The notes beneath the pieces are model-generated. The model saw nothing but the letters and a program-made list of their open reading frames with translations, had not been told where the DNA came from and searched no databases. A stretch of 64,000 bases of DNA from positions 1-64,000 of the forward strand of contig DAHUXD010000024.1 of NCBI GenBank assembly GCA_027307335.1, in the 5' to 3' direction. This document shows, in pieces, positions 2,828 to 38,140 of the stretch. The position numbers and the translations under genes are program-made. Source of the DNA: Acidobacteriota bacterium (lineage in GTDB: Bacteria; Acidobacteriota; Thermoanaerobaculia; UBA5066; Gp7-AA6). Position 1 is the first letter of the stretch; every line of letters begins with the position of its first letter.

Positions 2828-4741
<1,914 letters not shown>

Positions 4742-4794
4742 GCTCGGACCTCTACCGGTCCGCTGCGCGGACCGTGGAGAGAGGGGGAATTCGC
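4742..4794 (+). repeat. Gene-end repeat with hairpin, copy 1 (after ftsH)
   Basis: Directly after the ftsH TAG comes GCTCGGACCTCTACC, then a hairpin GGTCCGC-TGC-GCGGACC (4757-4773), then GGAGAGAGGGGGAATTCGC. The same layout (stop codon, GC hairpin, purine-rich GGAGAG...TCGC tail) recurs after the gene ending at 11734 and after the minus-strand gene ending at 20669. There is no T run, so it is not a classical intrinsic terminator. Confidence 0.55.
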
Positions 4795-32709: not shown

Positions 32710-33711
32710 TCACCTCAGCGAGACGACGACCTTGCCCCTTGCGCGTCCTGCTTCGACATACGCCATGGCCTCCTTGGTCGATGCGAAGGGGAAGACTCGA
32801 TCGACGACTGGGCGAATGGTTCCGTCATCGATGAGAGACGTGATCATGGTCAGCTGCTCGCCGTCCGCTCGCATGAAAAGAAACGAGTATTGAGCCTGGC
32901 GGCGCGCTGCTTTCGCTGAAATCCCGTAGCTCAGGACGCCCATGATCGTTCTCAAGACCCATGACGCGCCGATGCCTCGCGCAAAGGCAGCATCGGGCGG
33001 GCCGGAGATGGAAATGAGCTGTCCGCCGGGCTTGAGCACTCGCAGAGATCTCTCGAGCGTCGCCTTGTCCAGGCTATTCAACACGACGTCGTAGTCACGG
33101 AGGGCGTGTGCGAAATCCTCCTTCTTGTAGTCGATCACGATGTCTGCGCCGAGGCTTCTGACCAGATCCACGTTGGCCGTGCTGGTGGTCGTCGCCACCG
33201 TCGCGCCGACGTGCTTCGCCAGTTGAATTGCAAATGTGCCCACGCCACCCGAGCCCGCGTGGATGAGCACCCTTTGTCCCTTTTGGAGATGCGCTCTTTC
33301 GATCAGCGCTTGCCAGGCGGTCAAGCCGACCAGGGGGATCGCAGCCGCCTCTTCCATGGTGAGGGCTTTGGGCTTGACCGCCACGTCACACTCCTTGATC
33401 GCAATGAACTCGGCGAATGCACCGATTCGCCCGTCTGCCGGCCGCGCGTAGACTTCGTCGCCGGGCTTGAATCGGCGCACTCGAGGTCCGACCCGGGCCA
33501 CGATGCCGGCGACGTCGTGGCCCAAGATGAGCGGCAGGCCATACCGCAGAATAAGCTTGAACTCGCCGTTTCTGATTTTGGAATCCAGAAGGTTGACACC
33601 AGCGGCGTGGACTTGGACCAAGACCTCGTCATCGCGCAGCTCCGGAGTCGGCATGTCTGCCAACCGCAACCCGCTCATCTTTCCATAGCGATCGAGGACG
33701 AATGCTTTCAT
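32710..33711 (-). CDS. NADP-dependent quinone-oxidoreductase-type MDR enzyme
   Basis: A 333-residue medium-chain dehydrogenase/reductase without the catalytic zinc site. VQVHAAGVNLLDSKIRNGEF and LILGHDVAGIVARVG form the N-terminal domain; the NADPH fold has AGSGGVGTFAIQLAKHVGA. It likely reduces quinones or enones with NADPH. Its ATG overlaps the SDR stop (ATGA), so the two genes form an operon. Third-position base use is less GC-biased than in chromosomal neighbours. Confidence 0.9.
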   Translation of the reverse strand: MKAFVLDRYGKMSGLRLADMPTPELRDDEVLVQVHAAGVNLLDSKIRNGEFKLILRYGLPLILGHDVAGIVARVGPRVRRFKPGDEVYARPADGRIGAFAEFIAIKECDVAVKPKALTMEEAAAIPLVGLTAWQALIERAHLQKGQRVLIHAGSGGVGTFAIQLAKHVGATVATTTSTANVDLVRSLGADIVIDYKKEDFAHALRDYDVVLNSLDKATLERSLRVLKPGGQLISISGPPDAAFARGIGASWVLRTIMGVLSYGISAKAARRQAQYSFLFMRADGEQLTMITSLIDDGTIRPVVDRVFPFASTKEAMAYVEAGRARGKVVVSLR

Positions 33712-34556
33712 GTTGTTTTCACTACCAGCATCGGGTCGAGCCGCAGATCTCTGCGAATCCCAGCATCCATCAGCCCAGCAGGCGCAAATCTGCGTAGGAA
33801 TCGCAGGCGGCTCGCGAGCCCGCCGGCTGTGTATCGGAGTTTCGGGCGAGCGGCACCAGCGGCTTTCAGCACGACGTCAGCCACGACGCCCGGCTGTTCT
33901 GCGGTTGCCATCACTTCCTTCACGCGCTGTTTCACGGCGGCGCGAACCTCGCGATACTCATCGAGCTTGGCGTCGGGTTCCAGGAAGTTAGCGTCGAACG
34001 GCGTCTTCACGTATGCGGGCTCGATGATCGACACGCGGATCCCCCTCGTGCGGAGCTCGTGGTCGAGCGATTCTGAGTAGCCTTCGATCGCGTGCTTGGT
34101 TGCGGCATAGAGGGCGCCGTACGGCATCGGCAGGAAGCCGAGCACGGAGCCGATGTTGATGATGCGACCGTTCCCTTGGCGCCGCATGTGGGGCACGACG
34201 GCACGCGTCATCCGGACCACTCCGAAGAAGTTCGTCTCGAAGATCGACCGTGCCTGGTCGAGGGAGCTTTCTTCCGCTCCCCCCGGGGCGACACCAAAAC
34301 CGGCGTTGTTCACGAGCAGGTCGATGCGTTCCTCCAGCCGCATCACTTCCTTGACGGCAGCTTCCACGGATTCGTCGCTCGTCACGTCGAGCGGCAGCAT
34401 CTCGAACGATCGCTGGCCTGCTTTGGCGCCGCGCCTGCTGGTGCCGTAGACCTTGTAACCAGCCGCCGCGAGCCTCTGCGCGGTGGCTTCGCCGATGCCT
34501 GACGACGCTCCGGTAACGAGCGCGACCTTGCTCCTCATTGCGACCTTGCTCTTCAT
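33708..34556 (-). CDS. Short-chain dehydrogenase/reductase (oxidoreductase of island operon)
   Basis: A 282-residue classical SDR: TGASSGIGEATAQRLAAAGYKVYGTSRRG for the cofactor (RR suggests NADP), NNAGFGV, catalytic Ser in NIGSVLGF and YAATK. The C-terminal LRRFAPAGLMDAGIRRDLRL extension is common in SDRs paired with TetR regulators. A duplicated start (MKSKVAMRSKVALVTG) may be a small in-frame duplication. It overlaps the downstream MDR gene. The TetR operator copy 51 bases upstream of the start should control it. Confidence 0.9.
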   Translation of the reverse strand: MKSKVAMRSKVALVTGASSGIGEATAQRLAAAGYKVYGTSRRGAKAGQRSFEMLPLDVTSDESVEAAVKEVMRLEERIDLLVNNAGFGVAPGGAEESSLDQARSIFETNFFGVVRMTRAVVPHMRRQGNGRIINIGSVLGFLPMPYGALYAATKHAIEGYSESLDHELRTRGIRVSIIEPAYVKTPFDANFLEPDAKLDEYREVRAAVKQRVKEVMATAEQPGVVADVVLKAAGAARPKLRYTAGGLASRLRFLRRFAPAGLMDAGIRRDLRLDPMLVVKTT

Positions 34557-34606
34557 AGTGTCCTTCCTTCCACGCCCTGCAGTTTCCCGGCCGGCTGAAC
34601 GCGAAG

Positions 34607-34622
34607 TATGATGATCATCATA
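34607..34622. promoter_or_regulatory. TetR operator, copy 1 (SDR promoter)
   Basis: TATGATGATCATCATA, a perfect 16-base palindrome, identical to the one at the start of the TetR gene (35259-35274). It lies between the TetR stop and the SDR start. Confidence 0.85.
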
Positions 34623-34662
34623 TTTAGATACGCACGGGTGGTCGGCACGGGTTCTTGTGAAA

Positions 34663-35259
34663 TCAGTCGCCGGTGTGGCTGAGCTGCTTCAGCGCCGCTT
34701 CGCGCAGCGCGTCCGAGAGGCGTCGGTCGTCGACCGCGCGCGCGAGCACGAGTGCGCCGACCATCGTTGCCACGTTGACGAGCGCGTGCTCGTGCGCGCC
34801 CGGCTGCCCCCAGTCTGGTGACTGACGGGCGACGAGGTCGATCATCTCCTTGATGCGACGCGTGGCGGCGTGCCGCACCTCGGGCGCCTGGCGCGGCATC
34901 TCCGAGCCGAGCGCCGCAACCGCGCAGCCGGTCTCCACGCCTTCCAGGTGCGCCGTCGAGAGGTAGGCACTGCCCAGCGCGTGCAGCGCCTGCTTCGGCG
35001 GCGCAGCCGCTGCGATGCGCGCCACCGCGGCGATGCCGTCGGCGCCGGCACGGTCGGCCGCCTCGGCGAGCATCGCCTCCCGCGAAGCGAAGTGGGCATA
35101 GAAGCCACCATGCGTCAGGCCGGCCTCCTTCATGATGTCGGCGACGCCGGTGCCACCGTAGCCGCTGCGCCGGATGGCGCGTGCGGCGGCCTCCACGATG
35201 CGATCGTGAGTGACGTCCTTTCGTCTGGAACTGTTTCGTTTTTTCGACGCAACTCGCAT
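34663..35259 (-). CDS. TetR-family transcriptional regulator
   Basis: A 198-residue repressor. The HTH is typical: THDRIVEAAARAIRRSGYGGTGVADIMKEAGLTHGGFYAHFASREAMLAEA, at about 17-67. The ligand domain is short with CAVAALGSEMPRQ. The in-frame open sequence extends 50 residues further upstream, but those residues are unlike TetR. The identical palindromes at its own start and before the downstream SDR operon indicate autoregulation and repression of the SDR/MDR genes, relieved by an electrophile or other unknown ligand. Confidence 0.92.
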   Translation of the reverse strand: MRVASKKRNSSRRKDVTHDRIVEAAARAIRRSGYGGTGVADIMKEAGLTHGGFYAHFASREAMLAEAADRAGADGIAAVARIAAAAPPKQALHALGSAYLSTAHLEGVETGCAVAALGSEMPRQAPEVRHAATRRIKEMIDLVARQSPDWGQPGAHEHALVNVATMVGALVLARAVDDRRLSDALREAALKQLSHTGD

Positions 35260-35274
35260 ATGATGATCATCATA
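35259..35274. promoter_or_regulatory. TetR operator, copy 2 (TetR promoter)
   Basis: TATGATGATCATCATA abuts and overlaps the first base of the TetR start codon. Bound repressor would cover the transcription or translation start directly; there is no room for a ribosome-binding site, so the transcript is probably leaderless. Confidence 0.85.
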
Positions 35275-35698: not shown

Positions 35699-38140
35699 CT
35701 AATTTCGCAAGGCGAGCAGCGGATCTCCGGCCATCGCTCGCCGCGCAGGGATGTAGCACGCGAGAAGGGCGACGAACACGAGCAGGAGAGTCGCGCCGGC
35801 CAGCGTGACAGGATCGGAGGGACTCACCCCGAAGAGGATGCTGGCGAGGGCACGCGGCACGACGAGCGCTGCTGCCAGGCCGACGAGCGCTCCGGGAAGG
35901 ATCAGCCTGAGGCCGTCACCGAGAACGAGTCGGAGGAGATCGCCGGGCTTCGCACCGATCGCGATGCGGATAGCTATTTCTCTCGCGCGCTGGGCGACGC
36001 CGTAGGCGAGCACTCCATACAGGCCGATCGATGCCAATAGGAGTGCCAGAACAGCGAAGGCACCGGCAAGTTTCGACATCAACCGCTCGGTTCCGAGCGA
36101 TTCGGCGGCAAACTCCGACTGCGTTTCTACGCTGACGATCGGCAAGTCTTTGTCGATCGCCTGCACTTCTCGGCGGATCGCGGCCGCGCCGGCCTTGGCA
36201 TCCATCGCCGTGCGCAGCGCGATCGTTATCTGGCCGAGTCTGTTGGCGGGGGTCTGCGTAATCGGGATGTACACCGCCGGACGGGAACTTTCGTCCCGGA
36301 GACTCAGCGATTTCACGTTTCGGGCCACGCCGACGATCTCGAATCCCTCTGCGATATCAGCTTCATCTCCGAAACGGAAGCGCTGGCCGAGAACGCCGGA
36401 ATGCGGAAAGTATGTGCGCGCGAACGCTTCGCTGACCACGGCGACTCGGGGTGCCGTGGGACCGTCCCCGGGTCCGAAGTCGCGCCCCTGGAGCACTGGC
36501 ACGCCCATGGTCTCGAAGAATCTGCTGGAGATTGGATAGCAGAAAGCCGTCGGGCCGTCGGGACGTGCTCCCGGGAATGAGATCTGCCTGGACCAGCGCC
36601 CGGCCAGAAAGCCGAAGCGCGAAAGGCTCGCGGAACGCACGCCCGGGATCCCTTGGAGCTGCTCCTGCAGGCGCGAATACAGATCCAGTTCCCTGGCCCC
36701 CTCATATCCCACGATCGTCGGGTAGGCTCGGACGAGAAGGACTCGATCCCGCTCGAACCCCGGGTCCACTCGAGTCAACTCGTAAAGAGTTCTCGCGAGC
36801 AGTCCCGCGGCGACGAGCAGGACCACGGACAGGGACACCTGGAACATCACGAGCGCTCTTCGAAGGCCGGTTGTCCGCCCGCCTCCGCCCTGCACGGAGG
36901 CGTCCTTGAGTACAGAGTTGAGGTCCGTCGTCGTGGCGCGCAGCGCCGGCGCTAGACCGAACAGGATTCCGACCGCGAGCGAGAGCGCGGCGGTGAACCC
37001 CATGACGCGCGCGTCGTGGTGAAGCTCGAGCGAAATTGAGGCGGGGCCGGTGCCGACGAGTTTCAGAAGCGCATCGCTGCCCCACGCCGCGAGCAGGAAT
37101 CCGAGCAGCCCGCCAGCGAGCGCGAGCATGACGCTCTCCGTGAGTAGCTGCCGGATCAGCCGGGACCGGGCCGCTCCGATCGCCAGCCGGAGTGCGATTT
37201 CCTTCCGCCTCGCCATCGACCTCGCCAGCATCAGGTTGGCGACGTTGGCGCATGCGATCAGGAGAACGGCCATGACGACCGCCATCAGAATGGCGAGCGG
37301 AACGGCAAACTCGTCCCGAAGATCGGAAAGACCTCTCGCTCCCGGGACGAGCACGATACGGGACGCGTCGCGTGCCTGCCCGTTCGACGAGGTCGCATCG
37401 AATTGGGGCGCCCTGACGTCGGATGCCCGATAGATTGCGTCAAGCTCATCTCGCGCAGACTCCTGACTGATCCCTGGTCTCAGCCTTCCCATGATTCCCA
37501 CCGAGACGTGGTCGTTGAGACGGAGCCGGGCCCAATGAGCCATGGGCATCCAAAGATCCGGAGCGTCGCCGGGCTCGATTCCGAGAAATCCCTCGGGAGC
37601 GACTCCGATAATCGTGAATGGGATGCCCTTGAGCACGATCGTTCGGCCCAGAACGGAGTCGAGAGCGAAGCGGCGTCTCCAGTAGCTGTAGCTGATGACG
37701 GCGGCAGGAGGACTTCCGGATCGGTCGTCATCGGGCACGAGGGTTCGCCCGCTGGAGGGTCGGATACCGAGGAGTTCGAAGAAATTTCCAGAGACGCACT
37801 GTCCCCAGAGGACCTCCGGCTGTCCGTCGACGCCAGCGCTCAGACGGGTCGTGTCGAACGCCAAGACGCCTGACAGGGATTTGTTGTTATCGCGGATTTG
37901 CTCGAAGAGCGTCTTCGGAAAGCCGTCATCCGTTCCCGTTCTCGAGACCGCTTCGAGAAAAAAGAGCTGCTTGGGGCTCCTCACGGGAAGTGTCCTCAAG
38001 ATGACGGCGTCGACGAGACTGAAAATCGCGGTGTTGGCCCCAATGCCCAGCGCCAGCGTGAGAATCACGGCGATCATGAATCCGGGGCTCCTGCGGAGGG
38101 TGCGCAGCGCAAGCTGAGTATCTCGTGCGAGGATCTCCAT
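35699..38140 (-). CDS. ADOP-type orphan ABC permease (MacB/FtsX family)
   Basis: An 813-residue protein with the duplicated layout of acidobacterial orphan permeases. It opens with DTQLALRTLRRSPGFMIAVILTLALGIGANTAIFSLVDAVILRTLP; then come a MacB-type periplasmic core (about 50-245), an FtsX domain with three helices (about 280-420), a second periplasmic core (about 435-670) and a second FtsX domain (about 690-805) ending PARRAMAGDPLLALRN. No ATPase gene is adjacent. Its substrate is unknown; relatives are extremely numerous in Acidobacteriota, which supports the taxonomic guess. It lies in the island. Confidence 0.93.
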   Translation of the reverse strand: MEILARDTQLALRTLRRSPGFMIAVILTLALGIGANTAIFSLVDAVILRTLPVRSPKQLFFLEAVSRTGTDDGFPKTLFEQIRDNNKSLSGVLAFDTTRLSAGVDGQPEVLWGQCVSGNFFELLGIRPSSGRTLVPDDDRSGSPPAAVISYSYWRRRFALDSVLGRTIVLKGIPFTIIGVAPEGFLGIEPGDAPDLWMPMAHWARLRLNDHVSVGIMGRLRPGISQESARDELDAIYRASDVRAPQFDATSSNGQARDASRIVLVPGARGLSDLRDEFAVPLAILMAVVMAVLLIACANVANLMLARSMARRKEIALRLAIGAARSRLIRQLLTESVMLALAGGLLGFLLAAWGSDALLKLVGTGPASISLELHHDARVMGFTAALSLAVGILFGLAPALRATTTDLNSVLKDASVQGGGGRTTGLRRALVMFQVSLSVVLLVAAGLLARTLYELTRVDPGFERDRVLLVRAYPTIVGYEGARELDLYSRLQEQLQGIPGVRSASLSRFGFLAGRWSRQISFPGARPDGPTAFCYPISSRFFETMGVPVLQGRDFGPGDGPTAPRVAVVSEAFARTYFPHSGVLGQRFRFGDEADIAEGFEIVGVARNVKSLSLRDESSRPAVYIPITQTPANRLGQITIALRTAMDAKAGAAAIRREVQAIDKDLPIVSVETQSEFAAESLGTERLMSKLAGAFAVLALLLASIGLYGVLAYGVAQRAREIAIRIAIGAKPGDLLRLVLGDGLRLILPGALVGLAAALVVPRALASILFGVSPSDPVTLAGATLLLVFVALLACYIPARRAMAGDPLLALRN

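Follow-up and report, generated by a model that had tools for sequence, protein, structure and literature searches.

Two identical 16-bp palindromes as predicted operators of a TetR-family regulator at the tetR and SDR-MDR promoters of an Acidobacteriota bacterium

The closest studied parallels to the locus described here are the AcuR-AcuI, NemR-NemA and AltR systems. In the acuR-acuI-dddL genes of Rhodobacter sphaeroides, according to the accessible text of PMC3017554, a TetR repressor gene stands directly before a zinc-type dehydrogenase gene, the operator is located over the promoter beside the ATG, and the message is leaderless, with no ribosome-binding site. The inducer in that account is acrylate, a reactive unsaturated compound, and AcuI protects against it. 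For NemR-NemA-GloA of Escherichia coli, the accessible part of the review PMC7464077 likewise gives a TetR gene before the gene of an electrophile-removing reductase. AltR of Pantoea ananatis is a NemR-related TetR protein; its inverted repeat lies partly over the -10 box of the regulator itself, with further copies in front of other cluster genes, and release of AltR depends on one cysteine (accessible text of PMC13178969).

The window, i.e. the whole stretch of 64,000 nucleotides that was analysed, contains a module of three genes, tetR, SDR and MDR. All of them are on the minus strand, and so they form a co-directional array and not a divergent pair. The features of the module are as follows.

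35259..35274, minus strand: predicted operator A, at the tetR start; its last A on the minus strand begins the tetR ATG.
34663..35259, minus strand: tetR, TetR-family regulator P0001, 198 aa, recognition segment GLTHGGFYAHF; PF00440 (E 6.2e-12) and PF21993 (E 3.3e-6).
34607..34622, minus strand: predicted operator B, in the gap that separates tetR from SDR; the SDR ATG follows 50 bases downstream.
34561..34571, minus strand: purine-rich stretch GGAAGGAAGGA, likely the SDR ribosome-binding site, as read from the sequence.
33708..34556, minus strand: SDR (short-chain dehydrogenase/reductase), 282 aa; NF004823 (415 bits, cutoff 310) and PF00106 (E 5.2e-52).
32710..33711, minus strand: MDR (zinc-type medium-chain dehydrogenase/reductase), quinone/enone-reductase-like, 333 aa; PF13602 (E 3.9e-33).

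The MDR frame overlaps the SDR stop by 4 bases, and the nearest solved sequence to MDR is 4ida, a "ripening-induced protein" (E 5.3e-54). The place before the tetR ATG that corresponds to the purine-rich stretch of SDR is occupied by operator A. Upstream of tetR, a large permease-like open frame (35699-38140, MacB/ADOP type by reading) is on the same minus strand.

P0001 is a member of the TetR family. Its TetR_N helix-turn-helix domain reaches 45.5 bits with PF00440, where the cutoff is 24, and its C-terminal domain scores 27.7 bits with PF21993 (LmrA/YxaF-like), just above the Pfam cutoff of 27. The AlphaFold2 model, with a mean pLDDT of 89 and ten helices, has the all-helical TetR fold with a separate C-terminal ligand domain. 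Its best fold match in PDB is 2fd5, a transcriptional regulator of P. aeruginosa (E 2.3e-8); the NemR structure 4yze ranks fourth and the YxaF structure 1sgm ranks 33rd. The LmrA/YxaF-like regulators have other genes and another operator sequence than this module. The best NCBIfam match of P0001 is NF041196 (ScbR autoregulator-binding factors), with 49.7 bits against a cutoff of 150.

When compared with the AcuR family model NF051457, P0001 scores 26.8 bits against a cutoff of 247. The AcuR operator is given in the accessible text of PMC3017554 as TAATAGAC-N6-GTCTATTA, whereas the site here is TATGATG-N2-CATCATA and is not of the AcuR type. That text also describes one promoter for all genes of the acuR system, with none between the genes and no SDR, whereas the module here has a second operator. 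NemR has another recognition helix and six cysteines compared to one in P0001. The two proteins share 22% identity in a profile alignment, and BLASTP aligns 47 residues of the helix-turn-helix region at 28% with no other significant stretch, which does not amount to orthology. AltR differs in its box (CAATCTAC-N6-GTAGATTG), in its ten other cluster genes and in its signal, the thiosulfinates, as far as the accessible text of PMC13178969 describes them. A literature search by sequence, with most subscription papers outside its reach, returned no description of the operator found here; one text match to the motif was rejected because the sequence was a His-tag primer.

The sequence TATGATGATCATCATA is present at 34607-34622 and at 35259-35274. 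The preliminary description of this DNA had claimed two identical, perfect 16-bp palindromes at these coordinates, and the positions, the identity of the two copies and the self-complementarity of each were all found to be exact. The starts of the two copies are 652 bp apart. One copy had been assigned to the TetR start and the other to the region before the SDR operon, and this placement agrees with ours: 35259-35274 coincides with the tetR start, while 34607-34622 falls in the intergenic stretch bounded by the tetR stop (34663) and the SDR start (34556). That description had noticed no further copies, and this was borne out as well. With up to 3 mismatches there is no other match in the 64-kb window, and in the same search none of 100 dinucleotide shuffles had any match. 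The genome-wide scan that had been suggested gave no third copy at up to 2 mismatches in the assembly (4.37 Mb, 65 contigs). Leaving the two central bases free in addition to 2 mismatches returned the same two places and no third site; a reversed control pattern gave 0 places at 2 mismatches and 2 at the lax setting, so the count at the lax setting is no proof by itself. As the genome is 96.5% complete, a third site could be missing.

Conservation was evaluated in relatives of the TetR protein searched in one genome per species, from which the best 80 of 409 were kept, with 67-82% identity. The resulting 81 loci are these 80 plus the window and L004, minus L097 (the same locus as L004); as close relatives, these loci are not independent of one another. 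The two 7-base arms were matched at 130 positions around the start of the protein match and at 150 after its end, and the best match was taken in each region. Site A was tested in 80 loci, since the contig of L112 ends before the tetR start. At least 11 of the 14 arm bases are kept at site A in 79/80 loci and at least 12 in 75, with L078 weak at 9; at site B, the corresponding counts are 81/81 and 79. What is kept across the relatives is TATGATG-N2-CATCATA, with the two central bases varying. Perfect symmetry is rare (site A 6/80 loci, site B 11/81), the A and B copies are identical in 4/80 loci, and the sites of most relatives are imperfect; the window and L067 are the only two of the 80 loci in which both places have the perfect TATGATGATCATCATA. 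The pair accompanies the TetR gene in several phyla, the loci being assigned by title or grouping to Pseudomonadota, Gemmatimonadota, Myxococcota and Acidobacteriota. In 28 control loci from the same phylum, whose TetRs are more distant, the best motif at any position matches 10 of the 14 arm bases. A wider set of 39 TetR loci at 25-46% identity grades between the close relatives and these 28 controls, since a degenerate site (11 or 12 of 14) remains no more than some 200 bp from the start in 13 of them and 26 have less. Two identical copies 652 bp apart could also be a repeat by chance or a trace left by a mobile element, which the shuffles and the retention at both places in relatives refute; we give it next to no probability.

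Some loci contain additional sites. A third site with 11-12 of 14 arm bases follows the MDR gene in L061, L065, L066, L081, L094, L100, L101, L107 and L108 (positions 4707-4773), and it precedes an SDR-like gene in L066, L081, L101 and L107. The Variovorax loci L036, L039, L043 and L063 (2814-2850) have one or two extra sites of 12-13 of 14, located 100-200 bp upstream of the tetR-side site.

We also counted the motif and the TetR gene in whole genomes. The motif with exact arms is present in 5 of 396 genomes of the phylum, compared to 1/396 for the reversed control pattern, and three of the five (the window's own genome, G271 and G286) have it at the module. The 3-kb loci of the other two, G153 and G405, contain no homologue of the three module proteins. 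Searching the same 396 genomes for the TetR protein gave 35 at E 1e-15, of which 4 are at 72% identity or higher, and all four have both sites at 12/14 or better; since the window's own genome, G181 (the same as L089) and G271 (the same as L099) were already among the 81 loci, only G286 is new. In 28 of the genomes bearing the module, 15 have the exact-arm motif, at 17 places, and 15 of the 17 are inside module loci by coordinate.

An unlinked host regulator could own the palindromes and the TetR protein could be a bystander, and the exact-arm motifs that are found away from the module speak for it: two, in genomes of the phylum, have no module homologue nearby, and a third, in Variovorax (L125), is outside the module locus of that genome. 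On the other hand, the exact-arm motif is nearly absent without this TetR, as only five of the 396 genomes have it at all; it follows the TetR gene between phyla and when the downstream genes change, and it is also found at paralogues whose recognition segment is the same. We therefore regard ownership by an unlinked regulator as very improbable.

The occurrence in the phylum is patchy, with the four genomes at 72% identity or higher and G013 at 77%, the latter outside the 396. Plasmid records matching the TetR number 348, nine of them at 60-80% identity. This patchy occurrence fits transfer and is no proof of it; in the TetR tree, no supported (starred) set contains the window's TetR, and its placement is not resolved there. 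L113 and L114 each have a single exact-arm motif (1501-1516 in both), in two genomes of the phylum, with no module homologue within 1.5 kb. One of the two places outside module loci in the module-bearing genomes is a perfect palindrome in L123 (1501-1516), about 10 kb from the main module of the same genome, between a TetR paralogue of 36-38% identity and a divergent FMN ene-reductase (old-yellow-enzyme-type) gene. The other adjoins an alpha/beta-hydrolase-like frame, its translation read by eye.

The position of the palindromes relative to promoters and start codons can be read from the relatives. At site A, the palindrome overlaps an ATG in 72/80 loci: its last A starts the ATG in 27, including the window, it ends in ATG in 45, and neither applies in 8. 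In the class of 27, TTG is found exactly 23 bases before the palindrome in 20 loci, and the hexamer there is 17 bp from TATGAT, spaced as a -35/-10 pair. TTG is at -23 in 5 of the 8 loci of the third class and in 11 of the 45, where it is more frequent at -33 (14) and at -16 (13), with another 11 at -49; because TTG peaks elsewhere than -23 in this class, no -35 element can be named for it. The TTG count was a second look, after a strict count of TTGACA before site A with a spacer of 17 had given 2/27 in the first class, which is not raised (shuffles up to 4). In the window itself, the -35 place before site A reads TTTTGT and is weak, no sigma-70-type match was found around either site, and before site B a TTG element is missing at the usual distance. 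The promoter reading thus draws on the relatives and not on the window, whose own elements are weak. From their spacing, the TATGAT left arm of operator A is likely the -10 element of tetR. With TATGAT as the -10 box, the transcript would start within a few bases of the tetR ATG, and the tetR message of this organism may have little or no leader, as was shown for acuR. At positions -20 to -4, no more than 4 of 6 bases of AGGAGG are matched in the 72 ATG-overlapping loci.

At site B, a TTGACA-like hexamer (at least 4 of 6) is located 5 bp upstream of the palindrome in 29/81 loci, while 200 shuffles gave a mean of 2.75 and a maximum of 8. This position would put the palindrome between -35 and -10. 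It bears on whether site A is the sole operator of the operon, with site B acting as an auxiliary site through DNA looping and with the tetR promoter also serving SDR-MDR, as in the acuR operon. Such an arrangement would suit three genes on one strand with short gaps and the spacing of the two sites, which is 628-681 bp in all 80 loci, and fusions of the acuR-acuI-dddL intergenic regions had no activity in the accessible text of PMC3017554. We account it unlikely, because site B has an upstream element of its own in those 29 loci and SDR has a likely ribosome-binding site of its own, and because the spacings show little helical phasing (Rayleigh R of 0.12 for the 30 distinct spacings and 0.29 for all 80 non-independent loci).

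Instead, we infer that the TetR protein very probably binds both palindromes and represses the tetR and SDR-MDR promoters, as a predicted self-contained, autoregulated module. A TetR dimer would bind at each palindrome and thereby repress two separate promoters. Operator A, over the -10 region and the start codon of tetR, would give autorepression of a leaderless or nearly leaderless message and keep the repressor scarce, and operator B would shut off the SDR-MDR promoter. A small molecule, perhaps one of the reactive carbonyls or enones cleared by the two reductases, would release the repressor, upon which the enzymes and the repressor would rise together. The preliminary description had predicted a complete regulon from the two sites. 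Its operator part is strengthened by the retention of both sites beside the TetR gene across phyla, by the presence of only two copies in the genome and by the low matches (at most 10/14) at distant TetRs; the gene content of the regulon turned out not to be fixed.

The gene order across the 81 loci is tetR-SDR-MDR in 48, tetR-MDR in 20, tetR-SDR in 3 and neither in 10, as counted at a threshold of 45% identity; contig ends truncate some of the loci. Other genes also follow site B, such as an AMP-binding enzyme (L098) and alpha/beta hydrolases (L043, L063, L074). A second, divergent TetR paralogue, 43-44% identical to P0001 and with its own site pair, is present in the Ralstonia group (L085, L092, L098). 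In L085 this paralogue has SDR and FMN ene-reductase genes next to it, and in L098 a GMC oxidoreductase gene. The enzymes across the loci are mostly of a redox theme, and some TetR paralogues adjoin FMN ene-reductases, in parallel with NemR-NemA. The sites of the Ralstonia-group paralogue are at 1924-1939 and 2594-2609 in L085, at 2065 and 2735 in L092, and at 2066 and 2745 in L098.

By analogy only, the resemblance to NemA and AcuI points to reactive carbonyls or enones. Cys112, the single cysteine of P0001, is present in 86/86 close or paralogous TetR rows and aligns with Cys106 of NemR, a redox cysteine in a GC motif. As a sign of thiol sensing, its invariance was given little weight, since 113 of 115 aligned TetRs below 60% identity, with other neighbours, have the cysteine too and it is a wide family feature. 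From the enzymes together with this family-wide cysteine, electrophiles, quinones or enones are no more than a plausible inducer class.

The recognition segment and the operator can also be compared across the family. The 86 close or paralogous TetR rows (84 different) share THGGFY, with Gly replaced by Ala at position 52 in 11 of them, and paralogues with the same recognition segment carry the same motif (the Ralstonia group at 43-44% and the L123 type at 36-38%). A 7-2-7 palindrome with base 4 free was sought at 202 TetR loci with distinct upstream regions, the strand being taken from tblastn. The search succeeded in 80/202 loci, over 32,320 bp of upstream sequence, and failed in 122; 78,228 bp of TetR coding sequence contained no such palindrome. 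Where residue 50 is His, 71/73 loci have G as base 4 of both half-sites, as do 13/15 below 60% identity. For the other residues, base 4 is G in 1/7 loci (Ala 4, Asn 1, Ser 1 and Pro 1, the Pro locus being the one with G). The association of residue 50 with base 4 has a Fisher value of 0.0023, which is descriptive, as the pattern was framed post hoc after inspecting the rows themselves and the rows are not independent. Gln50 relatives show AATGGTGATCACCATT (three exact) and are outside this pattern and its counts. In L245, L246 and L249 (Gln50), AATGGTGATCACCATT is located upstream of tetR, at -41 to -48 from the aligned start.

With slightly more doubt than conviction, we propose from these alignments that a large TetR group may use 16-bp 7-2-7 palindromes next to its own start codon and that residue 50 may read base 4 of the half-site, which would make operators predictable from the protein. 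The code would then be TATGAYG for His, a T for Ala or Asn (TATTACG), an A for Ser (GATAACG) and perhaps AATGGTG for Gln.

The kind of switch is familiar, and the operator and module would be a further case of the known autoregulated TetR design. A sequence oddity becomes a testable two-promoter regulon, with a precise predicted operator for a TetR group in several phyla. The covariation of residue 50 with base 4, if confirmed, would help to predict the operators of many unstudied TetR regulators.
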